A stretch of DNA of 64,000 nucleotides from Pararhodobacter oceanensis. GTDB taxonomy: Bacteria > Pseudomonadota > Alphaproteobacteria > Rhodobacterales > Rhodobacteraceae. Positions 38,688-57,536 of the stretch are shown one piece after another (positions within the stretch are counted from its first letter, which is position 1; the number at the start of each line of letters is the position of its first letter). A program made the position numbers and the translations under genes. The notes under the pieces were generated by a model that had not been told where the DNA came from, did not search any database, and saw only the letters and a program-made list of their open reading frames with translations. The DNA is taken from contig NZ_QDKM01000012.1 in the NCBI RefSeq assembly GCF_003076755.1, positions 1-64,000 on the forward strand, read 5' to 3'.

Positions 38688-38692
38688 TGCTG

Positions 38693-41357: not shown

Positions 41358-41379
41358 AATCGTGTGATTACCTGTGCGC

Positions 41380-43230: not shown

Positions 43231-44448
43231 TCAGGCAAGTTTCTTGAGCCGGACCTCGGGGTCCGAAAGGGTTTCGTGCGGCACATTGGCCTTGTTTTGC
43301 ACCAGGGCTTCGAGGAACCGGCGGTCGCGTCCGTTGTCGAACAGCACGCCCCCCGCCAGCACCCCGTCCGAGGTCCAATAGAGGCTTGAACCTTTCTCGC
43401 CGGGCACGCCGCGCGCGACTTCTTCGCTGCTGTCGTTCCAGAAGCCGACGACCTGCAGGTTGTGCCCGAGCTGGTCGGTCCACATCCACGGGATCTCGGC
43501 ATGTTCGGCGGGCCTGCCAGCGATGGTGCGCGCGATCGCCTGCGGCTGGCGGTCGGCATTGCGCCAGGTTTCCAGCCGGACATGCGCGCCGAAATGCGGG
43601 TTGTAGCTTTCGGCCACGTCACCGGCAGCATAGAGATTGTCATATCCGGCAATCCGTCCGCTGGTATCCGTAAGGATACCGCCACCGGGGCCAAGCGCGC
43701 CGGCGGGCGCGAGTTCGGTGTTCGGCGTCATGCCGATGGCGGCAAGGACGATATCGGCCTCGAAAAGCCCTTGATCCGTGGTCACGGTGAAATGCCCGCC
43801 GGTGGTCTCGATCCGCTCCACCGTCACGCCGCAACGGATATCGGTGCCATGCGCCCGGTGGCGTTGGGCCAGCCATTGCGAGGCGGTGGGCGGTAAAATC
43901 CGCGCCATGATCCGCGGTCCGGCCTCAAGCACGGTGACCTCGATATCACGCGCCCGCGCCGCATCGGCCACTTCCAGACCGATCACACCGCCACCGATGA
44001 CCACGATGCGTTTTGCCTTATCGAGCCCCTGCGACAGCCGCGCGCAATCATCCATATTGCGCAATCCGGTGCAGAGTTCACCCCCCGGCAGGGGCAGGGC
44101 GCGCGACCTGCCGCCGGTGGCGATGATCATGGCGCCAAAGCCAATGCGCTGGCCCGAGGCGGTGGTCGCGATGCTGCTGTCGTAATCAATCGCGGTGACG
44201 GGATCGCCTAGCCGCACCTCGACATTCGGCGCCGTCAGCACCGCGTCCGAACATAGCGGATCGGCGTTCTCCGGGTCGAAGGCCTTCAGCAAATCCTTGC
44301 TCAGCGGCGGGCGGTCATAGGGCGCGTGGGGCTCGTCTCCGGCAAGGATCACTGGGGTGGTGATGCCCTCGTCGAGCAGCGCGCGAAGGCTGCGGGCTCC
44401 GGCCTGTCCGGCACCGACAATCAAGATCGGGCGCTCTGCGTGGTCCAT
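43231..44448 (-). CDS. FAD-dependent ferredoxin reductase of the Rieske oxygenase system
   Basis: A 405-aa pyridine-nucleotide-disulfide-type oxidoreductase like rhodocoxin or biphenyl-dioxygenase ferredoxin reductases. FAD motif ILIVGAGQAGARSLRALLDEG near residue 8, NADH motif VVIGGGVIGLEVADAARA near residue 148, and LYAAGDVAES near 280 are all present, plus the C-terminal domain typical of these reductases. It should pass electrons from NADH to the Rieske ferredoxin encoded at 50132. The ATG at 44448 is chosen; a 13-bp GntR-type site lies 36 nt upstream, so transcription is probably repressed without inducer. Confidence 0.9.
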   Translation of the reverse strand: MDHAERPILIVGAGQAGARSLRALLDEGITTPVILAGDEPHAPYDRPPLSKDLLKAFDPENADPLCSDAVLTAPNVEVRLGDPVTAIDYDSSIATTASGQRIGFGAMIIATGGRSRALPLPGGELCTGLRNMDDCARLSQGLDKAKRIVVIGGGVIGLEVADAARARDIEVTVLEAGPRIMARILPPTASQWLAQRHRAHGTDIRCGVTVERIETTGGHFTVTTDQGLFEADIVLAAIGMTPNTELAPAGALGPGGGILTDTSGRIAGYDNLYAAGDVAESYNPHFGAHVRLETWRNADRQPQAIARTIAGRPAEHAEIPWMWTDQLGHNLQVVGFWNDSSEEVARGVPGEKGSSLYWTSDGVLAGGVLFDNGRDRRFLEALVQNKANVPHETLSDPEVRLKKLA

Positions 44449-44484
44449 AGGGTGCGGCCTTTGATTCGTTACGCTGTATTTAGC

Positions 44485-44497
44485 GTATACGGTATAC
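44485..44497. promoter_or_regulatory. GntR-type operator, copy 2 (ferredoxin reductase promoter)
   Basis: GTATACGGTATAC, flanked by TTTAGC on the left and ATTAAA on the right. The flanks are nearly those of copy 3. It lies 36 nt upstream of the reductase start. Confidence 0.7.
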
Positions 44498-44625
44498 ATT
44501 AAATCTGTCAACATACCTCTACACCCGCGCAAATCCATTGACATAAAAGGGAATATTCCGATCTGGCGCCTTAAGGATTAGTCGGGGTTTCTGCGCTGCA
44601 GCTTATGCGTGTTCGGCGCGCGTGA

Positions 44626-45279
44626 TCAGGCGTCGGTCTCGCTGAACTCCAGAAATGAGTCCCGCGCTTTGGTCAGCAAGGTCAGTTGAAGCTCGGCGGC
44701 ACGCTGGTCATCTCCGGCCTCGAGCGCATCGGCCAGATCCAGCATCCCGTCGGCTGACATGCGCCGCCACGCGGGGCGGCCAAGGGTGCTGATCCGCACG
44801 AAATGGATGGAATCCTCATACTGCTGGATCGCATCGACCAGCGAGCGGTTTTCGACCTCGCTCAGGATCACCTCGCGCATACGGCCATGCGCGGCGATAT
44901 AGGCATCGCTGTCGCGGCTGGCTTCGACCTCCTTGCGGATCAGCGCCGCGATCTTGGCCCGTTTCGCCGGTTTCGTCTGGCGCACCATCGAGCCGATCGC
45001 ATGCGGTTCCAGCAACAGGCGGATCTCGGTGACATCAATCACCTGCTGGCGCGACATTCGCGGCAGCCGGTAGCCGCGCGCCGCCTGCGACAGTAACCCG
45101 TCCTGCTCGAGCATCGCCAGCGCTTCGCGCACAGGGGTCCGCGAGACGCCGAGTTCATCGGCAAAAGTGCGTTCGTAAAAGCGCGTATTCTCGTCGAATT
45201 CGCCGCTGGTGATGCGCCCCCGAAGATTTTCATAGACCTGCTGGCGCAGATCAACGGCCCGGACAATCGGCTTTGTCAT
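44626..45279 (-). CDS. GntR-family (FadR/FCD type) regulator
   Basis: A 217-aa regulator. The N-terminal winged HTH is visible (ADELGVSRTPVREALAMLEQ at about residues 40-59), and the C-terminal FCD domain starts near 80 (IDVTEIRLLLEPHAIG) with the metal-binding His residues in AAHGRMREVI. FCD proteins usually bind organic acids. It lies between the leftward reductase-dctP unit and the rightward Rieske operon. Perfect 13-mers flank its gene and recur before GMC/ALDH, so I infer it represses all three. GAGAGGAAAT precedes the ATG at 45279. Confidence 0.9.
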   Translation of the reverse strand: MTKPIVRAVDLRQQVYENLRGRITSGEFDENTRFYERTFADELGVSRTPVREALAMLEQDGLLSQAARGYRLPRMSRQQVIDVTEIRLLLEPHAIGSMVRQTKPAKRAKIAALIRKEVEASRDSDAYIAAHGRMREVILSEVENRSLVDAIQQYEDSIHFVRISTLGRPAWRRMSADGMLDLADALEAGDDQRAAELQLTLLTKARDSFLEFSETDA

Positions 45280-45423
45280 AATGCTATTTCCTCTCAAACG
45301 GGTCTGCCGCGCGGCATCATTGTGCCAGCACCGACGGCGCACCGAGCATCGTCCTATTGGTATTAGGCACAGGCGCGCGCAGGTCAACACCTTGAAATTT
45401 TGTGTTGCATGTTCGGATTTAGT

Positions 45424-45455: not shown

Positions 45456-46751
45456 ATGACAGACAAAGCTAGGCTTCACGATCGTTACCCCGAGTTGGGG
45501 ACGGGCAGTTTGCCCGTCAGTCCCTATATCGACCCGGCCTATTGGGAGGCCGAGAAAAAGCATCTCTTCAAGAAGACATGGCTGCATATCGGCCGCGTCG
45601 AAGAGCTGCCGAAAAAGGGCTCTTACATGGTCCGCGACATTGCCGCGCTCGATGCGTCGATTGTCATTGCCCGTGACCGCTCGGGCGAGATCAACGCCTT
45701 TCACAATGTCTGTTCGCACCGTCTGAACAAGATTGCCTATCAACCTTACGGGACGACACGCAAATTCGCCTGCCGCTTCCACGGCTGGGCCTATGACCTC
45801 GACGGCTCGCTCTCGGGTGTGCCGGATGAGAAATCCTTTATGGAGGGGTTTGATAAGGCCTGCCTTGGCTTGTCCAAAGTCTCTTGCGATGTCTGGCAGG
45901 GCTTTATCTTCATCAATATGGATCCCGAACCGGCGCAGACATTGGCCGCGTTCATGGAGCCGATGTATGGCGGGCTTGACGGCTATCCCTTCGAGAAATT
46001 CACCGCATGTTACGGCTGGTCGACGGTGGTTGATGCCAACTGGAAATTCGCCCTCGATGCGTTTCAGGAAACCTATCACGTCGCCTATCTCCATGGCCGC
46101 TCGATTGCGGATTCCCTTGCCCAGAACGAAGAGGGGATGCTGCATCCGATTGATGGGCTCTGTGGCGATGTGCATCGGCGCCTGTCGATCGCCGGAAATC
46201 CGAACACGGTCTATGGCAACCCGCAGGCGGCAACCAGCGGTCTGACGCAATCCTCTGTCTCGGGCAGCGCCGATATCGGGAACCGGATCGCCGCCAAAGC
46301 GCTGGCCGCCGGAGCCGGGGGCACGAAAATCGACCTGTCGCAGGTGACCCTGCCGGAGGCGTTGAACTGGACCAAACACCCGCATTGGGCCTTTGATATC
46401 AACGTCGTATTCCCCGATTTTTATCTCTCGTGCCGCCCCAATTATTTTCAGGCGTATAATTTCCGCCCGATCTCGCACAATAAAACGCTGTTCGAGGCGC
46501 GGGTCTATTACCCCGAGATGAAGACCGCGGGGGGCCGTTTCTATCAGGAATATATGAAAGTCACCCTGCGCGATGTGTTGCTGGAGGATCTGGCCACGCT
46601 GGAGATGACGCAGGAGGCCGCCGAAACCGGCGCCAAAACCGAAATGGTGATCAACGACTTCGAATTGATGGTGCGCCATCAGGCGGTGGTTGTCGACAGA
46701 ATCGTCGAGGCTGGCCTCGCCGCCGATGCGGCCGCGCTGGCGGCGGAATAA
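45456..46751 (+). CDS. Rieske-type ring-hydroxylating oxygenase alpha subunit
   Basis: A 431-aa oxygenase. The Rieske [2Fe-2S] ligands are C86-x-H88 and C106-x-x-H109 (CSHR and CRFHGW). The mononuclear iron site shows H208 and H213 in ETYHVAYLH, with the bridging acidic residue D201 before them; the third ligand is probably the Asp in LLEDLATLEM. It should insert oxygen into an aromatic or heteroaromatic ring, taking electrons from the Rieske ferredoxin at 50132. GGAGG lies 5 nt before the ATG. It heads a 15-gene operon. The substrate cannot be assigned from the sequence. Confidence 0.92.
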   Translation: MTDKARLHDRYPELGTGSLPVSPYIDPAYWEAEKKHLFKKTWLHIGRVEELPKKGSYMVRDIAALDASIVIARDRSGEINAFHNVCSHRLNKIAYQPYGTTRKFACRFHGWAYDLDGSLSGVPDEKSFMEGFDKACLGLSKVSCDVWQGFIFINMDPEPAQTLAAFMEPMYGGLDGYPFEKFTACYGWSTVVDANWKFALDAFQETYHVAYLHGRSIADSLAQNEEGMLHPIDGLCGDVHRRLSIAGNPNTVYGNPQAATSGLTQSSVSGSADIGNRIAAKALAAGAGGTKIDLSQVTLPEALNWTKHPHWAFDINVVFPDFYLSCRPNYFQAYNFRPISHNKTLFEARVYYPEMKTAGGRFYQEYMKVTLRDVLLEDLATLEMTQEAAETGAKTEMVINDFELMVRHQAVVVDRIVEAGLAADAAALAAE

Positions 46752-46762
46752 GGACCCGGAAT

Positions 46763-47110
46763 ATGACAGAGCTTCCCGTTAAATTCGCAGAGCTTTCGGT
46801 TTGGGGCGCATGGTGCCTTGCCACCGAGACCGAACGCAACGCCCGCCGCGTGGCCAGCAGTTTCGAGGATATCTCGGCCTTCGCCATGGCGCTGGAGCCG
46901 CATATCGAGGCGATCTGCGCGCATATTGACGCGGTTCAGGCCGAGGGTGAACTGGACCCGCCGACGCTGAACCTTTTCTACATGCTGATGTCGCTGGCCG
47001 AGGTCGCCCCCGCGATCGAGAGCTATGATCCCGAGGTCGAGGTGGTTCACGGCTACAACTCCAAGCTGTTTGTCGCCGAGGAGCGCCACCCGCTCCGTCC
47101 GGCGCTGTGA
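46763..47110 (+). CDS. Unknown 115-aa protein in the Rieske operon
   Basis: A mostly helical, acidic protein with no recognised domain. Visible features are a tryptophan-rich start (VWGAWCLATETERNARR), a central helical region (FAMALEPHIEAICAHIDAVQ) and the ending VHGYNSKLFVAEERHPLRPAL. Codon use is strongly GC3, and the gene sits 11 nt after the oxygenase with GGACCCGGAAT before its ATG, so it is real. A small structural or assembly subunit of the oxygenase is a guess only. Confidence 0.75.
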   Translation: MTELPVKFAELSVWGAWCLATETERNARRVASSFEDISAFAMALEPHIEAICAHIDAVQAEGELDPPTLNLFYMLMSLAEVAPAIESYDPEVEVVHGYNSKLFVAEERHPLRPAL

Positions 47111-47118
47111 GGTCCGGC

Positions 47119-47532
47119 ATGGCAAAATGTCAGGTTTTCAGTTTCGACCGCGATCTGCGCGAGGTGGTCGAGGACGGCCTCTATATGCAGGCGGTGGTTG
47201 GCGAGGCGCTGAGCGTGGGCGTGGTCAATTTCCGCTCCGCAAAGGGCAGCGATATCCCCGCCAAATCCCATGCCCATGGCGAAGAGGCGACCTTGCAGCT
47301 GCGCGGCGGGTGCACGGTCAACCTCGGGGCGGATGTTGACGCACCCGAAGGCGCGGTCGAGCTGGAGGAGGGCGTGGTAATGATCATGCCCGCCGACCGC
47401 TATCACTCGGGCATCAACCGCTTTGATGACGGGGGCATGTGTCTGCGTCTCAATGTGGTGACGCCGCCGCGCGCCGAATACGGAAAATCGGGCGAGGCCA
47501 AGGTGTATTACCCGACGGGGGACAAGCCATGA
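47119..47532 (+). CDS. Cupin-domain protein 1
   Basis: A 137-aa protein with a single cupin. The first metal motif shows H51-x-H53 followed by acidic residues (SHAHGEEATLQLRGG), and the second motif has the His of ADRYHSGINRF near residue 96, so a metal site is likely intact. The family includes dioxygenases, isomerases and sensors. The ATG at 47119 was chosen; the GTG at 47107 overlapping the upstream stop is an alternative. It overlaps cupin 2 by 4 nt. Confidence 0.8.
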   Translation: MAKCQVFSFDRDLREVVEDGLYMQAVVGEALSVGVVNFRSAKGSDIPAKSHAHGEEATLQLRGGCTVNLGADVDAPEGAVELEEGVVMIMPADRYHSGINRFDDGGMCLRLNVVTPPRAEYGKSGEAKVYYPTGDKP

Positions 47533-47807
47533 GCGACTGCGAAATCTATCAGACCGATATGGCCGAAACGCCCTTTTCTGTGACCGGCAATGAGCTTAGC
47601 GTCGATATGCGCTGGGTCAGTGATCCGATTGACGCGCATAAATCCGGCGAAGAACTGGTTGCAGTCATCGAAGGGGCTGGGCGGCTGACATGTGACGGCG
47701 AGGTCTACGCGCTATCCAAAGGGCAGGGGGTTTTGATCCCCGCTGCCAGTGAGCGCGCGTGGGAGTTCGAGGCGCCCGCGCTGCTTTACCGGGTGGCGCT
47801 GAAATGA
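47529..47807 (+). CDS. Cupin-domain protein 2
   Basis: A 92-aa small cupin. The core is seen as ELVAVIEGAGRLTCDGEVYALSKG followed by LIPAASERAWEFEA. The first motif lacks the usual H-x-H (AHKSGEE only) and the second lacks a His, so the metal site is degenerate and the protein may bind ligand rather than catalyse. It overlaps both neighbours by 4 nt (ATGA), placing it firmly in the operon. Confidence 0.75.
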   Translation: MSDCEIYQTDMAETPFSVTGNELSVDMRWVSDPIDAHKSGEELVAVIEGAGRLTCDGEVYALSKGQGVLIPAASERAWEFEAPALLYRVALK

Positions 47808-48334
47808 GTGCTGCGGCGGATCTATCCGACCGGATCGCAGCGCTTGAGGATCGCGAAGCCCTTCGCGACCTCATGCAGCGCTATGCGCGGGCGGCGGATG
47901 CCAAATACACCGCGGATCTGCAAGTGCGCGACCCAAAGAGCGTGGCGCAGGCCGCTGCCGAACAGGCCGCTTGTTTCGCCGAAGATGCCGCATGGAGTGC
48001 CGGGCAATTCGGCGGTGAGCTGAGAGGCCGCGCGGCGATTGCGGCGTTTTTCGAGACCAGCCCATGGAGCTATGCGCTTCACCAGTATGTCTGCCCCGAA
48101 ATCACCCTTGACGGCGATACCGCCGACCTGCGCTGGCGCCTGCTCGAACTCGGCTGCCCCCAAGCCGACGCGCGAGTGGTGCTGCTGGCCGGTGTCGTGG
48201 CGCAAACCTGCCGGCGCACCGACGAAGGCTGGCGCATCACCTCGATGCGGTTTGACGTGCTGCAAGAGATCGAACTCTCCGACAATCGCAATGCGGTCAC
48301 CTGCCTCATACCGAAGAAAGGACAAGCAGCATGA
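47804..48334 (+). CDS. SnoaL-like (NTF2-fold) protein, possible oxygenase beta-subunit analogue
   Basis: A 176-aa NTF2/SnoaL-type protein. The N-terminal helix IAALEDREALRDLMQRYARAAD, the acidic CFAEDAAWSAG and the strand RGRAAIAAFFE are typical. This fold is shared by beta subunits of ring-hydroxylating dioxygenases and by small hydratases or cyclases. Its place in the Rieske operon suggests a beta-like structural role, or an enzyme acting on the hydroxylated product. The ATG at 47804 overlaps the cupin 2 stop. Confidence 0.8.
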   Translation: MSAAADLSDRIAALEDREALRDLMQRYARAADAKYTADLQVRDPKSVAQAAAEQAACFAEDAAWSAGQFGGELRGRAAIAAFFETSPWSYALHQYVCPEITLDGDTADLRWRLLELGCPQADARVVLLAGVVAQTCRRTDEGWRITSMRFDVLQEIELSDNRNAVTCLIPKKGQAA

Positions 48335-49176
48335 CTATGACTGCGATGGCCAAGCCGGAGGCGCCCAGCGGCTGCTTTCCGCGCGCAGAAAACCGATGCC
48401 ATGTGGTGTCCAACGCGCCGATGAATTCCGAATACCGGCTCTTGGTGGTGGATGCGCCCGAGACCGGACTTTCCGCCTATGCCGGCCAGTTTTTCCACCT
48501 GCTGTGTCCGGCAACCGCGACCGAACAGCCGTTTTTGCGGCGTCCGATGAGCATCTACCGGATTGACCGCGAGAACGGCCAGCTCGGGTTTTTGTATAAG
48601 GTGACCGGCAAGGGCACCCGTGCGCTCGCCTCGCTGGCACCCGGTGATGAGTTGAACGCGACCGGCCCGCTGGGTGTCGGGTTCAGCCTGCCGGAAGGCA
48701 CCAAACATGTGGCGATGGTGGCGCGCGGTGTCGGGCTGGCCACGCTTGCCCCGCTGGCGCGGATGGCGCGCGCACAGGGCGCGATGGTCACCGCGATCCT
48801 CTCGGCCCGCGCGCCCGAGTTCCTGATGTCGCGCGATGAACTCGAAGCGGCGGGCGCAAGGGTGATCGAGGTCAATGATGTTGCGGGCAATTCAGCGCCG
48901 CAAGAGGTGATCAACCGGCTGCGCGATATCCACGCCGAGACGCCGATCGACTTCATGGCGACATGCGGCTCGAACCGTCTGCTGGGCCTGACCCGCGATC
49001 TGTGTTCCGAATGGCGCATCCCCGGTCAGGTCGCTGTCGAGGCTTTCATGGGCTGCGGGTTGGGCATGTGCTTTGCCTGTGTGGTGCCGGTGCGCGACGC
49101 TCAGGGACACGAAGAGATGAAACGGGTTTGCTATGACGGTCCGGTGTTTGGCGTCGAGGAGGTGACAGCATGGTAG
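48331..49176 (+). CDS. PyrK-like FAD/[2Fe-2S] electron-transfer subunit
   Basis: A 281-aa homologue of dihydroorotate dehydrogenase electron-transfer subunit PyrK. A ferredoxin-reductase-like FAD domain (PFLRRPMSIYRIDRENGQLGF near residues 70-90), an NAD domain (KHVAMVARGVGLATLAPLARM) and the C-terminal iron-sulfur cysteines (FMGCGLGMCFACVVP, then RVCYDGPVF) are present. The canonical GGGxGxAPL motif is replaced by ARGVGLATL. It overlaps the PyrD-like gene by 7 nt and should form a complex with it, exchanging electrons with NAD(H). Confidence 0.88.
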   Translation: MTMTAMAKPEAPSGCFPRAENRCHVVSNAPMNSEYRLLVVDAPETGLSAYAGQFFHLLCPATATEQPFLRRPMSIYRIDRENGQLGFLYKVTGKGTRALASLAPGDELNATGPLGVGFSLPEGTKHVAMVARGVGLATLAPLARMARAQGAMVTAILSARAPEFLMSRDELEAAGARVIEVNDVAGNSAPQEVINRLRDIHAETPIDFMATCGSNRLLGLTRDLCSEWRIPGQVAVEAFMGCGLGMCFACVVPVRDAQGHEEMKRVCYDGPVFGVEEVTAW

Positions 49177-50114
49177 ATCTCTTTGTCACCATCGGCGGTG
49201 TGCATATGGCCAACCCGATCATGCCCGCCTCGGGCTCTATTGCCGAGGGTATGGCCGATCTGGTCGATCTGGGTAAACTCGGGGCGATTGTGCTCAAGAC
49301 CATCACGCCGGACATCCGGCAGGGCGTGAAACCGCCGCGTGTGGTCGAATATACCGATGCGACGCTGTTCTCGATTGGCATCCCCAGCAAGGGGCCCGAT
49401 TACCTGCTCAACCATACCGTGCCGTTTTTCGCCCGTTTCGGCCCGCCGGTGATCGCGAGTATCTCGGCCGATACCGCCGAGGATTTCGGCACGCTGGCCG
49501 GATATATCACCGATCCACGTATCGCCGCGATCGAGGCCAATATCTCTTGCCCGAACCTGCGCGCCCATGGCCGTGCCTTCGGGATGGATCCGGTTGCCGC
49601 CGCCGAGGTGATCCGCGCGATGAAGGCCAATACCGATCTGCCGATCTGGGCCAAACTCACCCCGAATGTGGGCGATATCGCCGAGATTGCCCGTGCGGTC
49701 GAAGATGCGGGCGCCGATGCCGTGGTCACCGCGAATGCGATCCTCGGCATGGGGATCAACGCCGAAACCATGACCCCGCGGCTTGGCAATGTGGTCGGTG
49801 GCCTCACTGGCCCGGCGGTGAAGCCGGTGATCCTGCGCATGGTCAACCAATGCGCCGAGGCGGTGAAAATTCCGGTCATCGGTTGCGGCGGCATCGCGAC
49901 CGGCGAGGATGTGGTCGAATATATGCTGGCCGGTGCCTCGGCAGTGCAGATCGGCACGATGAATTTCGTCCACACCGCCGCGATGGAGCAAAGCATCGCC
50001 TGGGTCACGGACTATTGCACACGCAAGAACATCGCCCGCGTGGCAGAGCTGACCGGGGCGCTGAAACTGCCCGTCGATCAGAACTCTGAACAGCGCGGCG
50101 CGGTGGCTTTGTGA
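49170..50114 (+). CDS. PyrD-like flavoprotein (class 1B dihydroorotate dehydrogenase homologue) with altered substrate pocket
   Basis: A 314-aa FMN TIM-barrel enzyme. The active-site Cys127 is kept in NISCPN, as are N189 and the class-1B GGLTGPAVKP loop. However, the orotate-contacting motif L-N-x-x-G-L-x-N is replaced by L-F-S-I-G-I-P-S (residues 66-73), so both Asn are lost, and the Asn-Thr pair is Asn-Ala (189-190). I infer it does not act on dihydroorotate but reduces or dehydrogenates another ring or C=C bond, paired with the PyrK-like subunit. Its operon context is catabolic, not pyrimidine synthesis. Confidence 0.88.
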   Translation: MVDLFVTIGGVHMANPIMPASGSIAEGMADLVDLGKLGAIVLKTITPDIRQGVKPPRVVEYTDATLFSIGIPSKGPDYLLNHTVPFFARFGPPVIASISADTAEDFGTLAGYITDPRIAAIEANISCPNLRAHGRAFGMDPVAAAEVIRAMKANTDLPIWAKLTPNVGDIAEIARAVEDAGADAVVTANAILGMGINAETMTPRLGNVVGGLTGPAVKPVILRMVNQCAEAVKIPVIGCGGIATGEDVVEYMLAGASAVQIGTMNFVHTAAMEQSIAWVTDYCTRKNIARVAELTGALKLPVDQNSEQRGAVAL

Positions 50115-50131
50115 AGATGAAGGATGAACTG

Positions 50132-50449
50132 ATGAGCACAAGCTGGTCGACGCTCTGCGCTGCAGGGGATCTGCCCGATGGCGAGGCCCGCGCGTTCGAA
50201 ATCGAGGGCGCGCGCCTCTGTCTGGTCAATGATGCGGGCTCTTATTTCTGCGTCGATGACCTCTGCACCCATGGTAAGGCGTATCTCTCCGAGGGCTATT
50301 GCGACACCGAAGACTGCGTTTTGGAATGCCCGCTCCACGGCGGTCTGTTTGACTACCGCAACGGCGAGGCCTGCGGCGAGCCCGCCGAGAAACCGGTGAA
50401 AAGCTATGCGGTGCGCGTCGCCGACGGGCATGTGCAGGTGCAGCTATGA
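50132..50449 (+). CDS. Rieske-type ferredoxin
   Basis: A 105-aa soluble Rieske protein. Ligands are in CTHGKAYLSEG (C-x-H) and CPLHGGLFDYRNG (C-x-x-H). The sequence from CDTEDCVLECPLHGG is typical of ferredoxins of three-component dioxygenases. It should carry electrons from the FAD reductase (43231-44448) to the oxygenase. The ATG at 50132 has AGGA 7 nt before it; a GTG at 50111 overlapping the previous stop is possible but less likely. It overlaps the asparaginase-like gene by 4 nt. Confidence 0.92.
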   Translation: MSTSWSTLCAAGDLPDGEARAFEIEGARLCLVNDAGSYFCVDDLCTHGKAYLSEGYCDTEDCVLECPLHGGLFDYRNGEACGEPAEKPVKSYAVRVADGHVQVQL

Positions 50450-51447
50450 GCGCCGCGGCCCGCCGCGTGGCCATTGTCGGCGCGGGCGGCACCATCGCCA
50501 TGGAGGGGGCGCATCCTTTCGATTGGGTCGATTACGGCGATAGCGGGCGGATCAATCCGGTCGAGAAAATCGTTGCGGGGATGGACCGCGGGCTTGATGA
50601 TATCGCGCTGGAACTGGTGCCGTTTCGGATGCTGCCCTCGACCGGCATCACGGTTGAGGACTGGATCGAACTGGCCGCTCTGGTGAAGGCACTGGACGCA
50701 AGACCCGGGATCGCGGGGATCGTCATCACCCATGGCACCGCGACGCTGGAAGAGACCGCGTTTTTCATCGAAGCGACCTGCGCGGTGACCAAACCGGTCA
50801 TTCTGTCCGGCGCGCAACGCCCGCCCAATACCGCGGCAAGCGACGCGATGGTCAACCTGCGCGCGGCGGTCTCGGCCGCGACACAGGCGCCTGCGGGTGT
50901 CTACGCCTGTATGAATGGCCAGCTATTCGCCGCCGCGGATGTGAGCAAAACGTCGAATTTCGCGCTTGATGCCTTTGAGGCGCCCGAGTTCGGCCCGTTG
51001 GGACGCATTGATGCCGACGGCAGCCTGTTCATCGCCCGCGCCCCGATCCCCGCGCCCAGAGTGCTGGATCTGCCCGAGGGCACGGTGCCGCGGGTGGATA
51101 TTGCCCTGTCTTATGCCGGTTCGGATGGCACCGCGATCCGCGCCCTGACCGCCGCCGGAGCGCAGGCGATCATCGTCGCCGGCATGCCGCCGGGCCGCGC
51201 CGCCCCCGGTGACCGCGCCGCCATGTGCGAGGCCGTCGCCGCCGGTGTGGTTGTTGTTCAATCCAGCCGTGCCCTGCGCGGCAGCGTGCCGGTTCAGCCC
51301 TATAACCGGGCAGAGGGCATTCTGGGTGGCGGCGGATTAAGCGTTCAGAAAGCGCGCATCCTCGTTTTACTGGCACTGTCTTCGAATTTAGACATCGAAG
51401 GAATAGAAGAGCTACTCCAGACCTGGGGGCGCTCGCCGCCCACCTAG
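50446..51447 (+). CDS. Asparaginase-family amidohydrolase lacking the canonical catalytic Asp
   Basis: A 333-aa type-I/II asparaginase-fold protein. The nucleophilic Thr16 is in VGAGGTIAM, and the second motif is H-G-T98-A99-T-L-E-E-T where canonical enzymes have H-G-T-D-T; the Asp of the second triad is therefore Ala. K168 is kept in DVSKTSN. No signal peptide. The change suggests a different amide or a modified mechanism. In the operon it may release ammonia from a ring-cleavage amide. GSGGLSVQKARI-type residues close the C-terminal domain. Confidence 0.88.
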   Translation: MSAAARRVAIVGAGGTIAMEGAHPFDWVDYGDSGRINPVEKIVAGMDRGLDDIALELVPFRMLPSTGITVEDWIELAALVKALDARPGIAGIVITHGTATLEETAFFIEATCAVTKPVILSGAQRPPNTAASDAMVNLRAAVSAATQAPAGVYACMNGQLFAAADVSKTSNFALDAFEAPEFGPLGRIDADGSLFIARAPIPAPRVLDLPEGTVPRVDIALSYAGSDGTAIRALTAAGAQAIIVAGMPPGRAAPGDRAAMCEAVAAGVVVVQSSRALRGSVPVQPYNRAEGILGGGGLSVQKARILVLLALSSNLDIEGIEELLQTWGRSPPT

Positions 51448-51521
51448 GCCAAAACTGACCGAAGGTTCCGCAAGAGAACCCGGTCCCAAATGACCCAACA
51501 CGGAGGTTCGCCAAGGCGCCC

Positions 51522-52034
51522 ATGGGACGAATTTACAGAGGTATTTTGCTGAGTCTTGCGATTGTGGCCGGTCTATTGCTGGTCTTTCTCGTCGTCGTGA
51601 TCGGCGCCGAAGCGATACTCCGCCTGTTCGATTTCGGATCGATTCGCGGCAGCGTGCAATTCTCGGAATACGCGATCTTTAGTCTGGCGATGCTCGCTGC
51701 ACCCTGGCTGTTGTATCACGATGGCCATCTGCGGGTGACGATTGTGCTGGATGCGCTGAGCGAACGCACGCGGGCAAGGGTATTGATTTTGACCGATATC
51801 ATCGGGCTTGCGGCCTCGGCCGTCGCCCTGCGCTATGCCTTTGGCGTTCTGCTGCAGTCCTACCAGCGCGGGCGCTTCCTTTTTGACGATGTGGTGGTGC
51901 GCGAATGGTTGCTGCAATGGCAGGTGCCGCTGGCGCTGGCCTTGCTGGTGATCGAATTCATCCGCCGGATCTGGCTGGCCCTCGGCCTGCCGGTCGGCCG
52001 TGCCACCCTGACAGGAGCCCAAGACAATGCCTGA
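51522..52034 (+). CDS. TRAP transporter small permease (DctQ type)
   Basis: A 170-aa protein with four hydrophobic helices (residues about 8-30, 47-66, 85-106 and 135-152). The loop RGSVQFSEYAIFSLAMLAAPW and the segment HDGHLRVTIVLDALSERTRA match the DctQ family. It assists the large permease whose gene overlaps by 8 nt. A 74-nt gap with a weak GGTTC/GAACC dyad (51464-51480) separates it from the asparaginase-like gene. The matching DctP is probably the protein encoded at 42206. Confidence 0.9.
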   Translation: MGRIYRGILLSLAIVAGLLLVFLVVVIGAEAILRLFDFGSIRGSVQFSEYAIFSLAMLAAPWLLYHDGHLRVTIVLDALSERTRARVLILTDIIGLAASAVALRYAFGVLLQSYQRGRFLFDDVVVREWLLQWQVPLALALLVIEFIRRIWLALGLPVGRATLTGAQDNA

Positions 52035-53343
52035 GTGGATTTTCGCAATATCGCTGATGTTCGGCAGTGTTCTGGTCCTGCTCATGCTGGGCGTGCCGGT
52101 GGTGTTTTCCTTTCTCGCGGTGAATATCGTCGGCGCGCTGATTTTTCTCGGCGGTGATATGGGGCTGACCCAGATGGTGCGCAGTATGCGCTCGACCGCA
52201 GGGCAATATTCGCTGGTGCCGATTCCGCTTTTTGTGCTGATGGGCGAGATCATGTTGCAGACCGGCATGGCGCAGAAATCCATCGACGCGATTGACCGGC
52301 TGATCAGCAAAGTGCCCGGTCGCCTGTCGATTGTCGCGGTTCTGGGCGGCACGGTGTTCTCGTCGCTGTCGGGCTCGACGCTGGCCAATGCGGCGGTGCT
52401 AGGGCGGACGCTGTTTCCGCAGATGAAAGACCGCGGTTATTCATCGAGCATCTCGATCGGCCCGATCCTTGCGGTCGGCGGTATCGCCATGCTGATCCCG
52501 CCCTCGGGGCTGGGCGTTCTGTTGGGCTCGCTGGCGCGAATATCGATCAATGACCTGTTGATTGCCGCGATTGTGCCCGGCGTGCTGATGGCGGTGCTGT
52601 TTCTGGGCTATATCGTCCTGCGCTGCCTGATCGACCCCGAGATCGCGCCCCGCTATGACGGACCGGTCCTCACCCTCAGCGAGCGTATCCTGCCGATCTT
52701 CACCCATGTGGTGCCGCTCTTGGGTGTGTTTGTTGTCGTCGTCGGGTCGATGTTCATGGGCATCGCGACTCCCACCGAAAGCGCGGCGCTGGGCGTATTG
52801 GCGACCTTGGTGGCGGCGGCGGCCTACCGCGTGTTGTCGATCAAGGCGATGATCCTCTCGGTCAGCGAGACCCTCAAGTTCAGCGCGATGATCCTGCTGA
52901 TTATCTGCACCTCGGGCACGTTTTCGCAGATCCTCGCCTTTTCCGGCGCGACGCAGGAAATGTCGTCAATCGTGACCAGCGCCGATGTGTCCAGCACGAT
53001 GCTGGTGATCCTGATGCTGGCGATCCTGATCTTTCTGGGCTGCTTTATGGATCAGGTGTCGATGATGATGCTGACCCTGCCGATCTTTATGCCGATTGTG
53101 ATCACCGTTGGCGTTGATCCGATCTGGTTCGGTGTGCTGATGCTCATCGCGCTGGAGATCAGCCTGACCACGCCGCCCTTCGGTCTGCTGCTGTTCCTGA
53201 TGCAGAGCGTGGCCGACAGGCCGCTGGCGATGAAGACGATCTATTGGGCGGTGACGCCGTTCCTGCTGCTGGAATTTGCCGTGCTCGGGCTGATCCTCTT
53301 CCAGCCGGGCACGGTGAGCTGGCTGCCCGATCTGATCCGCTAA
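52027..53343 (+). CDS. TRAP transporter large permease (DctM type)
   Basis: A 438-aa DctM protein with about twelve helices. Typical elements are LLMLGVPVVFSFLAVNI near the start, VLGGTVFSSLSGSTLANAAVLG near residues 102-123, the IPPSGLGVLLGSLA loop and GIATPTESAALGVL. It is the ion-coupled import channel. It belongs to the Rieske operon and precedes the molybdenum hydroxylase genes by 12 nt, so it should import the substrate that these enzymes attack. Confidence 0.93.
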   Translation: MPEWIFAISLMFGSVLVLLMLGVPVVFSFLAVNIVGALIFLGGDMGLTQMVRSMRSTAGQYSLVPIPLFVLMGEIMLQTGMAQKSIDAIDRLISKVPGRLSIVAVLGGTVFSSLSGSTLANAAVLGRTLFPQMKDRGYSSSISIGPILAVGGIAMLIPPSGLGVLLGSLARISINDLLIAAIVPGVLMAVLFLGYIVLRCLIDPEIAPRYDGPVLTLSERILPIFTHVVPLLGVFVVVVGSMFMGIATPTESAALGVLATLVAAAAYRVLSIKAMILSVSETLKFSAMILLIICTSGTFSQILAFSGATQEMSSIVTSADVSSTMLVILMLAILIFLGCFMDQVSMMMLTLPIFMPIVITVGVDPIWFGVLMLIALEISLTTPPFGLLLFLMQSVADRPLAMKTIYWAVTPFLLLEFAVLGLILFQPGTVSWLPDLIR

Positions 53344-53355
53344 TGAGGTAAGCTG

Positions 53356-54219
53356 ATGAAAAGCCACGATTTCGCCTATCTTAGGGCTACGTCGCTCGAT
53401 CAGGCGCTGAACGCACTTGCCGAGACCGAGGATGCCATTGTTCTTGCCGGCGGGCAAAGCCTTGTTGCGGCGCTGAATTTGCGCCTGCAGATGCCGGAGC
53501 TGGTGGTCGATATCAATCACCTCCCCGGTCTCGACCAGATCGAGAATGACGGCGGCGAGCTGCGTATCGGCGCATTGGTGCGCCATGCGCAACTGATGGA
53601 AAGCGCGGCGGCGGCCAAGGCGCTGCCGCTGATTGGCATGGCGCTGCCGCATGTCGCGCATCCGGCGATCCGCAACCGCGGCACCACCTGCGGCAGCCTC
53701 GCCTACGGTGATCCCGCGGCAGAGATGCCGGCCTGTGCCGTGGCGCTGGGCGCGACATTGGTTCTGGCCAGCAAAGAGGGCACCCGCGAGGTGCCGGCGC
53801 GCCGGTTTTACCGCGGTCTTTATGAGACCAGCCGCGCGCCGCATGAGTTGCTGATCGCCGCGCGCTTTCCCGTCGCGCCCGAGGGGGCGCGGCCAATCTT
53901 TGCCGAAGTCGCCACGCGGCGGGGCGATTTCGCCACGCTCGGCCTTGCCGGTCAGATCCATGTCGAGGGCGGCATGATCGCCGCCTTTGATCTTGTCGCC
54001 TTCGGCTCGGAGCCTGCGCCGCTGTTGCTGGAAAACACCGCCGCAAAAGCGCTGGGCAGGGTGCCGGACGCGGGTCTCATCGCCGAATTGGCGCAGGCGG
54101 TCGCGGAGGAGGTTGATCCGATGGAAAGCCCGCTTGCCACCGTTGAGATGCGCCGCCGCCAATACCGCGCGCTGGCCGAACGCGGCCTAAGCGTTGCCAT
54201 GGAGTTTGCCGATGTCTGA
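53356..54219 (+). CDS. Molybdenum hydroxylase FAD subunit (CoxM/XdhB-like)
   Basis: A 287-aa FAD-binding domain protein of the xanthine dehydrogenase family. FAD loops are in VLAGGQSLVAALNLRL (about residue 34) and HPAIRNRGTTCGSLAYGDPAAEMPA (split over residues 100-122), and the C-terminal CO_deh_flav_C domain ends with ATVEMRRRQYRALAERG. It accepts electrons from the iron-sulfur subunit. It overlaps the CoxS-like gene by 8 nt, in the order medium-small-large typical of Cox-type enzymes. Confidence 0.9.
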   Translation: MKSHDFAYLRATSLDQALNALAETEDAIVLAGGQSLVAALNLRLQMPELVVDINHLPGLDQIENDGGELRIGALVRHAQLMESAAAAKALPLIGMALPHVAHPAIRNRGTTCGSLAYGDPAAEMPACAVALGATLVLASKEGTREVPARRFYRGLYETSRAPHELLIAARFPVAPEGARPIFAEVATRRGDFATLGLAGQIHVEGGMIAAFDLVAFGSEPAPLLLENTAAKALGRVPDAGLIAELAQAVAEEVDPMESPLATVEMRRRQYRALAERGLSVAMEFADV

Positions 54220-54697
54220 CGAGAAAATCCGTTTCACCCTCAACGGGCGCGAGGTTGCGGTTCCTGCCGCGACACGGGGCCATCTGGGCGATCTCTTGCG
54301 TCACGGGTTTGGCGAAACCGGCACCCATATCGGCTGCGAGCACGGGGTTTGCGGCGCTTGCAATGTGGTGATGGACGGGGTCGTGGTGCGCTCGTGCCTG
54401 ACCCTTGCGGTGCAGGTCGCAGGGGCGGAGATCGAAACCATCGAGCATCTGGGCAATGACCGCAATGTCGCCGCGCTTCAGGATGCTTTCGTCGCCCGCA
54501 ACGCCTTTCAATGCGGCTATTGCACGCCCGGAATGATCATGACCGCGCGCGAATTGCTGGCCGGCAATGCCACCCCGCGGCGTGACGAAATCCGCGATGC
54601 GATCTCGGGCAATCTGTGCCGCTGCACCGGCTATCAATCCATCGTCGAGGCGATTGCGGATGCCGCCGAGACACTGCGGGAGACGGCCGGTGACTAA
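54212..54697 (+). CDS. Molybdenum hydroxylase [2Fe-2S] subunit (CoxS/XdhA-like)
   Basis: A 161-aa two-cluster ferredoxin subunit. The plant-type cluster ligands are in [15 protein letters not shown] with a further Cys in SCLTLAVQ. The second cluster is bound by [10 protein letters not shown] and [14 protein letters not shown]. Both clusters are complete. It links the molybdenum site to FAD. The ATG at 54212 overlaps the previous stop by 8 nt. It is followed by the large subunit with another 8-nt overlap if the GTG start is used. Confidence 0.93.
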
Positions 54698-57059
54698 GAT
54701 GATTACCAAGGGGATCGGTGCGCCGATGCCACGTGAGCGCGCACGCCCTCTAGTCGAGGGCCGCGGGAATTACGTCGATGATATCACGCTGCCGGGGATG
54801 CTTCATATCGCCTTTCTGCGCGCCCCTTTCGCGCATGGGCGCATATTGGATATCGACCGCACCGATGCCTTGGAACTGCCCGGCGTTGTCGCGGTGCTCG
54901 ACGGTAAGGATCTGGCCGAGGTCTGCGCGCCTTTTGACACCAATCCGCCCGGCGTGCCGCATCACGCCTCGCCGCCGCAGCCACCATTGGTGATCGAAGA
55001 AAGCTGTTTTCAGGGCGAGGCGGTGATCGCCGTGGTCGCCGAAAGCCGCGCCATTGCCGAGGACGCGGCGGAACTGGTGTTTGTCGATTGGGAGGAACTG
55101 CCGGCCGCTTGCTCGATTACTGAGGCGCAATCCGAGGGCGCCGCGCCGGTTCACAGCAGCTTCGAGGATAACCTCTCGCTGCATCACCGCTTCGGGGCCG
55201 AGGATGTCTCGAAGGCCTTCGAGAGCGCCGCCCATGTGGTCGAGGCGGATTTCGCCTTTGGCCGCCAGACCGGTGTCACCCTCGAGCCGCGCGGGATCGT
55301 CGCCCATTGGGATCCGCGCCGCGAGGAACTCGAAGTCTGGCAATCGCATCAGGTGCCATGGCAAATGCGCGAGATTTATGCCCGACAATTGCGCCTGCCG
55401 CCGCAATCCGTCCGCGTCACCGCGCCCGATGTGGGCGGGGCCTTCGGGCTAAAACTCCATGCCTATGCCGATGAACTGGCGGCGGTGGCGGTGTCAAAGC
55501 GCTTGGGCCGACCGGTGAAATATATCGTTGACCGGCTGGAAAGTTTCACCGCCGACGCCCATGCGCGCGAGGCCAAGGCGACTTGCCGTATGGCGGTGGA
55601 TGCCGCGGGGCATATCCTCGGGATAGACGCTTTGGTCGACTCGGGCTTCGGCGCCTATGCGATCCATCCGCGGGGCAGTTTCGGCGAATCCATGCAGGCC
55701 GCGCAGATGATCGGCGCCCCTTATAAAACCGGGGCGTTTCGCGCCGAGGTGCGCGGATGGCGGCAGAACAAACCGCCGAGCGGGGCGCTTCGCGGCGTCG
55801 GCCAGCCGATTGCCTGCGCGATCACCGAAGAGATGATGGATCTCGCCGCGCGCGCGGTCGGGATTGATCCCGCCGAGATGCGCCGGATCAATTACCGCAG
55901 CAGGCTGGACGCAGGAGAGCGCGCGACGCAATCCGGTCTGGTGATCGAGGAATTGTCTCTCGATGCCTGTCTGGCAAAGCTGCTGGAGGCGATGGATTAC
56001 ACCGCGCTCAGGGCTGAACAGGCGGCGCTCAGAGAGAAGGGCATCTACCGCGGCATCGGCTTGGCCAGTTTCGTCGAAATCACCGGCGTTGGTTCGGGGC
56101 TTTACGGGCCGCTCGGGCTGCCGCTTGCGGCCAACGAATCCTGTCGCCTGACCCTGCAACCCGATGGCAGCCTGACCTGCGCGACCAGCGTGACGGATCA
56201 GGGGCAGGGCACGCTCTCTGCGCTGGGCCAGTTGATCGCCGGTGAATTCGATATCGCCCCCGGCATGGTCAAGATGATCGCGGGCGATACCGCGCGCACC
56301 CCTTACGGCGGCGGCGCCTGGGCGTCGCGGGGCATGGCGCTGGGCGGCGAAGCGGCGCGGCGCGCCTGCCTGCGGATGCGCGACGGGCTGTTCGAGGTCG
56401 CGGCGTCAATCCTGCAATGCGAGCCCGGCGCGCTGCGGTTCGAGAATGGCGAGGTTATCGGCCCGCAAGGCCCCTCGGGGCTGACGCTCGCGGATATCGG
56501 GGCGCTTTGCCACTACCGGCCCTATGATATTCCGACCGGACAGGTGCCGTCGATGACGGTCGAGGAGAGCTTTCTGCCCGAAAACCTGCCCTATATCGCC
56601 AGCAACGGCGTGCATGCGGTGCATCTCGAGGTCGATACCGAACTCGGCACCGTTGAGTTGCTGGAGTATTGGGTGGTGGATGATTGCGGGACGGTGGTGA
56701 ACCCGCTGCTGGTTGACGAGCAACTGCGCGGCGGCATCGTGCAGGGCATCGGGGCGGCGCTCTATGAGGAATGCCTGTATTCCGAGGACGGCCAGTTCAC
56801 CAATGGCACGCTGGCGGATTACGTGGTGCCGATGGCGGGCGAAATGCCCGATATCCATGTCGGCCATATCACCACGCCAACCCGCGCCTCGGGTCTTGGC
56901 GCCAAAGGTGTGGGCGAGGCCGGAACGGTCGGCGCCCCCGCCGCCCTGCGCAGTGCGATCAGTGACGCGCTGTCGCCGCTGGCCACACGGCTGGTGAAAC
57001 AACCCTTCACCACCCGCCGCATTCTCGAGGCCGTCATCGCCGCAGAAACCGCCACATAA
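54690..57059 (+). CDS. Molybdenum hydroxylase large subunit (xanthine dehydrogenase family, CoxL-like)
   Basis: A 789-aa molybdopterin-cytosine-dinucleotide enzyme. The ald_xan_dh_C domain starts near residue 12, and the Mo-binding part has GGAFGLKLHAYADE. The active-site loop reads PPSGALRGVGQP where CO dehydrogenases have a Cys-containing AYRCSFR motif, so it is not a CO dehydrogenase. The catalytic Glu is in GVGEAGTVGAP near the C-terminus. Such enzymes hydroxylate N-heterocycles or aldehydes using water. The start is GTG 54690 (8-nt overlap, GGGAG upstream) or ATG 54699. Confidence 0.92.
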   Translation: MTKMITKGIGAPMPRERARPLVEGRGNYVDDITLPGMLHIAFLRAPFAHGRILDIDRTDALELPGVVAVLDGKDLAEVCAPFDTNPPGVPHHASPPQPPLVIEESCFQGEAVIAVVAESRAIAEDAAELVFVDWEELPAACSITEAQSEGAAPVHSSFEDNLSLHHRFGAEDVSKAFESAAHVVEADFAFGRQTGVTLEPRGIVAHWDPRREELEVWQSHQVPWQMREIYARQLRLPPQSVRVTAPDVGGAFGLKLHAYADELAAVAVSKRLGRPVKYIVDRLESFTADAHAREAKATCRMAVDAAGHILGIDALVDSGFGAYAIHPRGSFGESMQAAQMIGAPYKTGAFRAEVRGWRQNKPPSGALRGVGQPIACAITEEMMDLAARAVGIDPAEMRRINYRSRLDAGERATQSGLVIEELSLDACLAKLLEAMDYTALRAEQAALREKGIYRGIGLASFVEITGVGSGLYGPLGLPLAANESCRLTLQPDGSLTCATSVTDQGQGTLSALGQLIAGEFDIAPGMVKMIAGDTARTPYGGGAWASRGMALGGEAARRACLRMRDGLFEVAASILQCEPGALRFENGEVIGPQGPSGLTLADIGALCHYRPYDIPTGQVPSMTVEESFLPENLPYIASNGVHAVHLEVDTELGTVELLEYWVVDDCGTVVNPLLVDEQLRGGIVQGIGAALYEECLYSEDGQFTNGTLADYVVPMAGEMPDIHVGHITTPTRASGLGAKGVGEAGTVGAPAALRSAISDALSPLATRLVKQPFTTRRILEAVIAAETAT

Positions 57060-57083
57060 GCAACGAAGCACAGGAATTCACTC

Positions 57084-57536
57084 ATGGAAATGCAAGACCG
57101 TCAAATCATCGCTGCCCCGCGGCTCACCGTCTTCGAGGCGATCCTGACGCCGGAGATGCTCAAGGCCTGTATTCCGGGGGCCGAAGAGGTGACCGGCTCG
57201 CCGGACGAGGGGTTCGAGGCTGTCGTGGTGCAGAAAGTCGGGCCGGTGAAAGCCAAGTTCAAAGGCGCGGTCACCATGGAAGACGTGGTTCCGGGCAGCT
57301 CGCTGCGCCTGATTGGCGAGGGCAAAGGGGGCGCCGCCGGATTTGCCAAGGGAACCGCGGTGATCACGCTGGCCGATCATCCCGATGGCTGCGAATTGGT
57401 CTATACGGTCGAGGCAAAGATCGGCGGGAAGATCGCCCAGCTCGGCTCGCGCATTATCGACGGATTCGCCAAGAAAATGGCCGACCAGTTCTTCGAGCGG
57501 TTCAAGGGCGAATTGGAAGGCGTCGCGCAAAGCTGA
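57084..57536 (+). CDS. coxG: CoxG-family SRPBCC protein
   Basis: A 150-aa SRPBCC protein of the CoxG family. Recognisable parts are IAAPRLTVFEAILTPEMLKACIPG near the N-terminus, KVGPVKAKFKGAV in the middle, and a helix ending KKMADQFFERFKGE. In CO oxidisers CoxG anchors the dehydrogenase to the membrane; relatives accompany many molybdenum hydroxylases. It is the last gene of the rightward operon. There is no obvious terminator directly after it. Confidence 0.9.
   Translation: MEMQDRQIIAAPRLTVFEAILTPEMLKACIPGAEEVTGSPDEGFEAVVVQKVGPVKAKFKGAVTMEDVVPGSSLRLIGEGKGGAAGFAKGTAVITLADHPDGCELVYTVEAKIGGKIAQLGSRIIDGFAKKMADQFFERFKGELEGVAQS

Follow-up and report, generated by a model that had tools for sequence, protein, structure and literature searches.

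A rare, conserved proteobacterial gene set around a Rieske oxygenase and a candidate route for an indole-derived acid

Which compound is degraded by an operon that combines a Rieske oxygenase with relatives of dihydroorotate dehydrogenase and of asparaginase? The question is raised by 64,000 nt of Pararhodobacter oceanensis DNA (contig 12, NZ_QDKM01000012.1, positions 1 to 64,000; hereafter "the window"), part of a genome of 4.08 Mb in 32 contigs. Positions 45456-57536 of the window contain 15 open reading frames (ORFs), every one of them on the + strand. An earlier note, made from the letters only, had proposed a catabolic pathway for an N-heterocycle or related compound. We keep a catabolic operon, with an N-containing aromatic acid as its probable substrate, but not as one 15-gene unit. 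Our leading candidate is a route that degrades an indole-derived acid, for instance one arising from the plant hormone auxin, via a 2-oxindole stage, with 2-oxindole-3-acetate in first place; we propose this tentatively, at slightly less than even confidence. The broader claim, i.e. that an N-containing aromatic acid is converted to catechol and an amide, is rather probable.

An alignment of the oxygenase alpha subunit was scanned against 84,980 species genomes, which yielded 74 loci; with two added plasmid loci, 76 were examined. We defined the core as the Rieske alpha subunit, a 115-residue protein (p115), two cupins, a SnoaL protein, a Rieske ferredoxin, an asparaginase-like hydrolase, a ferredoxin reductase and, usually, a PyrK/PyrD pair. 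It is present in 33 of the 76 loci, which belong to two classes, the alpha- and betaproteobacteria (L012, L013, L015-L040, L042-L044, L046 and L052). L027 and L046 share one assembly, and L008, being the same contig as L017, was left out of the counts; L017 shows that Pararhodobacter aggregans carries the cluster. Among the core loci p115, cupin A, the SnoaL protein and the ferredoxin reductase are each found in 33/33, and cupin B, the ferredoxin and the asparaginase-like gene in 32/33, because L029 ends with its contig. The values for pyrK and pyrD are 29/33 and 28/33, respectively. The gene order is nearly constant, with the reductase gene inside the row in betaproteobacterial and sphingomonad loci. 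Excluding the own genome, an alpha match with E ≤ 1e-40 was found in one of 59 relatives, and across a phylum sample none of 397 genomes had a match with E ≤ 1e-100. The gene set is thus rare, patchy and strongly conserved; an association found at 33 loci in two classes of proteobacteria is more than chance. The joint occurrence of the alpha subunit, the 115-aa protein and the PyrD-like protein, which the earlier note had named as a check, is confirmed with the above frequency of pyrD. The idea of a single 15-gene unit did not hold: the set is modular, and the molybdenum (Mo) hydroxylase and TRAP (tripartite ATP-independent periplasmic) transporter genes are accessory.

The alpha subunit was assigned by its Rieske domain and the histidines of its catalytic domain. 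PF00355 and PF00848 are over the cut-offs, and the protein has the Rieske CxH and CxxH ligands, two Fe-ligand His residues and Glu205 at the bridging position; C86, H88, C106, H109, E205, H208 and H213 are invariant in 4/4 aligned sequences. It reaches no NCBIfam equivalog cut-off (best values GbcA, 123 bits vs. 670, and HcaE, 111 vs. 830), and none of the operon proteins matches PF00866, the NTF2-fold beta subunit. The protein p115 has no match in Pfam or NCBIfam. Its predicted model (mean predicted local distance difference test, pLDDT, 84) consists of four helices and a tail that is poorly predicted, and a fold search against the PDB gave 66 matches at E values up to 10, none of them at E ≤ 0.001.

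The adjacency of p115 and alpha was counted over 87 alpha matches, binned by alpha bit score. Above 500 bits, i.e. in the core loci, alpha and p115 are at most 120 nt apart in all 33 cases. Between 230 and 500 bits this is true for 14 of 18, with a fifteenth at 127 nt; the three exceptions are L041 (2.9 kb), the first alpha of L047 (2.4 kb) and L051 (contig end). Below 230 bits, p115 adjoins none of the 36 alphas. The pair also occurs apart from the rest of the core: L041, L045 and L053 (alpha identity 37-41%) contain p115 and lack the remaining eight core genes. The bridging-position residue is Glu in the window alpha and in six distant members that were read directly; it was dropped as a mark of the clade, because nine of 13 alphas at 100-150 bits, all of them without p115, also have Glu.

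Some distant relatives of the oxygenase occur in clusters of the indole type. Two near-identical Acinetobacter plasmid regions from pig manure and pig faeces (L089 and L110; alpha about 35% identical to that of the window) have the gene order acetamidase/formamidase, alpha, p115, SnoaL, styrene/indole monooxygenase, flavin reductase, short-chain dehydrogenase/reductase (SDR), ferredoxin and 2Fe-2S reductase, and L110 has catA, catC and a cycloisomerase gene within the fetched stretch. The alpha-p115-SnoaL-ferredoxin set is common to the window and the skatole-type clusters (profile matches in L089 and L090; tblastn), as are an amidase and, in L110, adjacent catechol genes. The Acinetobacter clusters differ by the styrene/indole monooxygenase, flavin reductase, SDR and acetamidase/formamidase, and no monooxygenase of the indole/styrene type, flavin reductase or SDR domain was found among the window's 15 genes. 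The window, in turn, has the cupins, PyrKD, the asparaginase-like enzyme, the Mo hydroxylase and another type of reductase. According to the accessible part of a report on A. piscicola p38, gene1687 and the flavin reductase gene1688 degrade skatole, the genes raised by skatole include gene1684 (ring-hydroxylating alpha), gene1687 and gene1690 (ferredoxin), and gene1684 is listed for indole, too (PMC11434297). As far as that part shows, the p38 gene offsets 0, +3, +4 and +6 (1684, 1687, 1688 and 1690) are the same in L089 and L110.

Styrene-monooxygenase-type proteins also adjoin alpha-p115 in L048, an acetamidase/formamidase does so in L090 and L045, and an amidase-signature enzyme is encoded between p115 and alpha in L041. 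Because unrelated amidase families adjoin one oxygenase family, this suggests that an amide is made or used near the alpha-p115 oxygenase.

The window encodes an enzyme that could act on such an amide. Where solved asparaginases have HGTDT and Ser-Gln, the hydrolase has HGTAT and Ser-Thr, respectively. It shares the two-domain fold, the threonine motifs and the lysine with L-asparaginase, and differs by Ala for Asp, Thr for Gln and by scores below the NCBIfam cut-offs. All 31 aligned sequences share the Ala of HGTAT, the lysine and the Ser on the substrate side (the gene occurs in 32 core loci and in the window); the HGTAT pattern is present in 28 of 32 hydrolase profile matches. In L-asparaginase, the Asp of HGTDT and the Gln contact the alpha-amino group, and Ser contacts the carboxylate of asparagine. 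Because the contacts to the alpha-amino group are replaced and Ser is kept, a C4 monoamide without an amino group would fit as substrate, as judged from these residues. A separate amidohydrolase, listed in the earlier note, was not found: no member of the amidohydrolase superfamily was found among the 15 proteins, and the asparaginase-like protein is the sole amide hydrolase among them. An HGTAT asparaginase-like gene was also seen in Roseomonas marmotae (L109, 6233-9960), beside genes for a 3-oxoacid CoA-transferase and pcaF, i.e. 3-oxoadipate genes; an oxygenase was not seen in the stretch shown.

The second altered enzyme is the PyrK/PyrD-like pair. It has the two-protein architecture of class 1B dihydroorotate dehydrogenase (PyrD/PyrK) and the catalytic Cys, and its PyrD passes two NCBIfam cut-offs; the PyrK-like protein has a best NCBIfam value of 130.5 bits vs. 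a cut-off of 314. The orotate-binding Asn of dihydroorotate dehydrogenase belongs to an NxxGLxN loop. Compared with 1ep1, the two Asn of this loop are replaced by Phe and Ser in the window PyrD. Both replacements are invariant in 24/24 aligned sequences (pyrD occurs in 28 core loci, plus the window), and the pattern LFSIGIPSKG is present in 27 of 28 PyrD profile matches. Alignments A3 and A8 each contain both L008 and L017. In L010, a 51% identical PyrD that lies among orotate phosphoribosyltransferase- and dihydroorotase-like genes keeps the first Asn (gene names by eye). The window genome has two other DHO_dh genes.

The occurrence of pyrKD varies. The pair is absent from the loci L031, L035 and L036, although the L035 genome has an operon-type pyrD at another place, and in L022 and L033 the pair lies several kb away from the remaining core. 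In L012 (Azospirillum ramasamyi), a 75-residue pyrD fragment (19029-19253; 64% identity) between the SnoaL and ferredoxin genes is a relic of a lost pyrKD pair. L010 contains, at 10688-18719, the 51% PyrKD pair together with pyrE-like, dihydroorotase-like, M20-like and TRAP genes (names by eye), a set that perhaps serves the uptake and use of orotate or dihydropyrimidines.

Dihydroorotate, asparagine and 2-oxindole-3-acetate all have a carboxylate two carbons away from an amide carbonyl. With this common spacing, an argument from chemical reasoning, an oxindole acid would suit both retuned enzymes, i.e. PyrDK and the hydrolase.

The model of the SnoaL protein (pLDDT 92) has an NTF2 fold with LinA, scytalone dehydratase, a bile-acid dehydratase and LdpA as PDB neighbours; its best PDB match, 3b8l, is titled "putative aromatic ring hydroxylase". 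Rieske beta subunits have the same NTF2 fold. Because the fold is near dehydratase and LinA types and Asp32 and His93 are invariant across 33 rows, the model suggests that the protein is probably a dehydratase- or lyase-like enzyme rather than a structural beta subunit. Cupin A has the motif HxHGEE ... H, with H51, H53, E55, E56 and H96 invariant in 17/17 aligned sequences, and this is likely to be a metal site. No invariant His was found in 15 aligned cupin B sequences, for which a metal site is doubtful. The HcaD/AndAa-type ferredoxin reductase probably serves the oxygenase.

The window Mo hydroxylase belongs to the xanthine oxidase family and has three subunits with Mo, flavin adenine dinucleotide (FAD) and 2Fe-2S domains; none of its proteins reaches a substrate-level cut-off in NCBIfam. 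All three genes are within the fetched flank in six of the 33 core loci (L013, L015-L018 and L046). In four Herbaspirillum loci (L021, L024, L043 and L044), a homologue of the catalytic subunit (51-52%) is encoded, by coordinates, about 14 kb downstream of alpha; in the one that was read, asparaginase-like, CoxG and ATP-binding cassette (ABC) transporter genes are followed by three Mo hydroxylase genes (names partly by eye). The Mo hydroxylase therefore belongs to the cluster in at least 10 of 33 core loci. In nine other core genomes, the best match to the catalytic subunit was 34-36% (six) or none was found at E ≤ 1e-120 (three), and the remaining 14 core loci were viewed within the fetched flanks only.

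Import genes differ between loci. TRAP genes (DctQ and DctM) are found in five of 33 core loci and a major facilitator superfamily protein in 20, the representative of which scores best with the aromatic acid/H+ symport family (298 of 418.55 bits, below the cut-off). Herbaspirillum has a Liv-type ABC transporter, and another ABC set lies beside the Azospirillum core. These varied import genes suit an organic or aromatic acid as substrate.

Catechol genes were found next to several cores. The window set comprises a cycloisomerase, an intradiol dioxygenase, an alpha/beta hydrolase, a thiolase, CoA-transferase subunits and an IclR regulator. The dioxygenases of the window and of Azospirillum score at best 158 and 174 bits vs. 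NCBIfam catechol cut-offs of 359-404, and that of Cupriavidus (L036) is near its cut-off (365 of 392 bits). Intradiol dioxygenase genes adjoin the core in L012, L015, L016, L033, L035 and L036, which represent three separate lineages, and none was found within the flanks of the other 27 core loci. The hand-over to the adjacent catechol pathway that the earlier note had considered is thus probable. No muconolactone isomerase was recognised in the window set; the 122-aa ORF at 37345-37713 is without Pfam match, and a LysR gene is found at 34083-34970.

From these features we infer the substrate, each reaction and the reaction order as follows. 2-Oxindole-3-acetate would be imported as such, by the TRAP transporter, or made from indole-3-acetate (IAA). 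Where a Mo hydroxylase is present, it would oxygenate C2 of the indole and produce the lactam from IAA; in the other loci, the route may begin with the lactam. The Rieske oxygenase, i.e. alpha and p115 with the Rieske ferredoxin and the HcaD-type reductase, would oxidise the N-bearing aromatic ring. Its product would collapse to catechol and the primary amide of a C4 acid of the succinamate or malamate type, whereby the aryl-N bond is broken. Hydrolysis of this amide by the asparaginase-like enzyme would give ammonia and a C4 acid. PyrDK could oxidise or reduce the C-C bond that lies between amide carbonyl and carboxylate in the C4 unit, a bond of the type that is changed in dihydroorotate, and the SnoaL protein could add or remove water at the same bond. 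Catechol would enter the neighbouring ortho-cleavage pathway.

Two auxin pathways are available for comparison. In the accessible parts of the sources, the iac route is given as IAA to 2-oxindole-3-acetate (Ox-IAA), dioxindole-3-acetate (DOAA) and catechol (PMC7225977, PMC8383072), and the oxygen introduced between Ox-IAA and DOAA comes from water (PMC7225977). Dehydrogenation and hydration by PyrDK and the SnoaL protein would likewise yield a water-derived oxygen. As far as the iac route is covered there, it shares with the window catechol as end product, nearby cat genes, a SnoaL-fold protein (IacI), an oxygenase and oxindole-acid substrates. It is set apart by gene content: it begins with the flavin enzyme IacA and the SDR IacE, neither of which is among the window's 15 genes, in which no acyl-CoA-dehydrogenase-like or SDR domain was found. 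The iad pathway of Variovorax, again according to the accessible text, ends in anthranilate and uses the alpha3beta3 oxygenase IadDE with its own reductase (PMC12633357). It has in common a Rieske oxygenase within an indole-acid pathway, but the window alpha matches the IadD entry 9o71 weakly (E 2.7e-17, residues 25-216), and 25 other PDB sequences rank above this entry.

The earlier note could not match the gene set to any described one. No account of the combination, including that of Rieske oxygenase, asparaginase and dihydroorotate dehydrogenase, was found among the 5.39 million papers of the open literature searched, most subscription papers being outside the coverage; however, the arrangement around the oxygenase is the same in the Acinetobacter cluster published as skatole-induced. 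We regard the set as a variant of Rieske-based indole-type catabolism, and because of p115 it may be more. A more far-reaching proposal would be that p115 is the obligate small subunit of a Rieske oxygenase architecture not recognised so far, in which alpha has a helical partner in place of the NTF2-fold beta subunit, and that enzymes of this class carry out the unexplained conversion of (hydroxy)oxindoles to catechol. The operon would then be a third auxin/oxIAA route, with a Mo hydroxylase at its start and with retuned forms of dihydroorotate dehydrogenase and asparaginase acting on the C4 side chain. We regard this proposal as possible and on the doubtful side.

Several points weigh against the oxindole-acid route. 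Unsubstituted catechol from an oxindole requires breakage of a C-C as well as a C-N bond, for which the mechanism is not established, and both cupins are without an assigned step in the scheme. The window PyrD passes two NCBIfam dihydroorotate dehydrogenase cut-offs, NF005574 (313.7 vs. 269) and, barely, TIGR01037 (273.7 vs. 270). Neither the L031 and L036 genomes nor the plasmid record of L012 yielded an operon-type pyrD. For 23 of the 33 core loci, 14 of which were covered within the flank only, a Mo hydroxylase is not known to belong to the cluster. No second asparaginase-family gene was found in the window genome, so that a plain asparaginase role is possible. The likeness to p38, for which part of the source was available, is one of gene order only. 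Near alpha-p115 in L014, L047, L049, L050, L053, L091, L092 and L093, no amidase or indole-type monooxygenase was seen (partly by eye), and with these eight loci the clade is not uniform.

The best of the alternatives, which we judge to be unlikely, is another N-heterocyclic acid as substrate, e.g. a quinolone/quinoline carboxylate, kynurenate or a pyridine acid. In this scheme, the Mo hydroxylase would generate a lactam, PyrDK would reduce the hetero-ring, a cupin or the Rieske enzyme would open a ring, and the hydrolase would remove a maleamate-like amide. It is compatible with the action of Mo hydroxylases on N-heterocyclic rings and of PyrD-type enzymes on a six-membered N-ring, with the metal-type His motif of cupin A, and with an EutA/arylmalonate decarboxylase-like protein of the racemase/decarboxylase family (below the cut-offs) next to 14 cores; the catechol genes in three lineages and the indole-type clusters of the oxygenase relatives, however, are at odds with it.

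Quite unlikely is an N-acyl or N-substituted aromatic acid without an indole, e.g. an N-acylanthranilate or N-aryl succinamate. Like anthranilate dioxygenase, the oxygenase would attack the N-bearing carbon and release catechol, CO2 and a primary amide for the asparaginase-like enzyme. The ferredoxin and reductase are nearest to those of anthranilate and phenylpropionate dioxygenases, catechol genes adjoin, and the altered asparaginase fits a released C4 amide, but the Mo hydroxylase and the skatole-type relatives would be left unexplained. That PyrDK rearomatises a cis-dihydrodiol from the Rieske dioxygenase, as the earlier note had considered, is very improbable: the 15 genes indeed include no short-chain dehydrogenase and pyrK and pyrD are frequent in the core loci, but the L031 and L036 genomes and the L012 record keep the oxygenase core where no such pyrD was found, and the catalytic Cys base that PyrD keeps is better suited to dehydrogenating a C-C bond next to a carbonyl than to oxidising an alcohol.

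Homarine/trigonelline, suggested by the marine-type alphaproteobacterial look of the host, was considered and rejected as substrate, as no homarine gene set was found in the open literature, and the catechol and skatole-type neighbours point elsewhere. For dipicolinate clusters, nothing relevant was found in the open literature searched.

The oxindole-acid route touches two described gaps. In the accessible part of one source, auxin catabolism is said to have an unfilled gap between 3-hydroxy-2-oxindole-3-acetate and catechol (PMC7225977), and in that of another, skatole degradation past 3-hydroxy-3-methyloxindole is said to need more research (PMC13101512). If the alpha-p115 oxygenase were the missing enzyme, the pathways for skatole and auxin products and related ones would be connected by a single family, and the type of amidase beside the oxygenase would predict the side chain. 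The set would also show a catabolic re-use of two families of central metabolism, dihydroorotate dehydrogenase and asparaginase, and could serve to recognise bacteria that clear auxin products in the surroundings of plants and algae.

The features of the locus are compiled in Table 1. With refined starts, the 14 junctions of the row are +11, +8, -4, -4, -4, -7, -4, -4, +74, -8, +12, -8, +1 and +24 nt, i.e. overlaps of 4-8 nt at eight junctions and a widest gap of 74 nt between the asparaginase-like gene and DctQ. The rightward row with such overlaps is as the earlier note had described it, and Pfam domains bear out its Rieske alpha subunit, PyrK/PyrD-like proteins, TRAP permeases, Mo hydroxylase, cupins and asparaginase-like protein. 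The genes for the reductase, the TRAP binding protein and the GntR regulator are outside 45456-57536, on the - strand. A promoter scan gave one site vs. a shuffle mean of 3.5, and a terminator scan gave 20 vs. 11.3 (standard deviation 3.5).

Table 1. Features of the oxygenase locus and its neighbourhood, in window positions
Feature	Position	Strand	Domains and scores
Rieske oxygenase alpha subunit	45456..46751	+	Pfam PF00355, PF00848
p115, helical alpha companion	46763..47110	+	no Pfam/NCBIfam match
Cupin A	47119..47532	+	PF07883 below cut-off
Cupin B	47529..47807	+	PF07883 over cut-off
SnoaL_4 / NTF2-fold protein	47804..48334	+	PF13577
PyrK-like flavin/2Fe-2S electron-transfer protein	48331..49176	+	PF10418, PF00970
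PyrD-like flavin mononucleotide (FMN) protein	49170..50114	+	PF01180
Rieske-type ferredoxin, nearest AndAb/HcaC	50111..50449	+	PF00355; NCBIfam AndAb 95.5 bits, below cut-off 150
Asparaginase-like amide hydrolase	50446..51447	+	PF00710, PF17763
TRAP small permease DctQ, accessory	51522..52034	+	PF04290
TRAP large permease DctM, accessory	52027..53343	+	PF06808
Mo hydroxylase FAD subunit (CoxM), accessory	53356..54219	+	PF00941
Mo hydroxylase 2Fe-2S subunit (CoxS), accessory	54212..54697	+	PF01799, PF00111
Mo hydroxylase catalytic subunit (CoxL), accessory	54699..57059	+	PF20256, PF02738, PF01315
CoxG-family protein	57084..57536	+	PF06240
GntR/FCD regulator, divergent	44626..45390	-	PF00392, PF07729
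HcaD/AndAa-type ferredoxin reductase	43231..44544	-	PF07992, PF14759; NCBIfam HcaD 301 bits, below cut-off 450
TRAP substrate-binding protein DctP	42206..43165	-	PF03480; NF037995 over cut-off
Catechol ortho-cleavage set	34974..42141	.	Pfam

Two further proteins are encoded next to the core in other genomes, i.e. an arylmalonate decarboxylase/EutA-like protein (below the NCBIfam cut-offs) in 14 loci, e.g. L034 6746-7519, and, in 17 loci, e.g. L038 17621-18400, one of about 240-260 aa that matches nothing in Pfam or NCBIfam. Within the window, 18236-33623 is a region of the sugar/polyol type with two GMC oxidoreductases, an aldehyde dehydrogenase, an FGGY kinase, a glycerophosphate-oxidase-like protein, an aldo/keto reductase and sugar ABC transporter genes. 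Past the operon, a PhoX-family alkaline phosphatase and a Hint_2/RTX-repeat protein are encoded on the - strand at 57970-61972.

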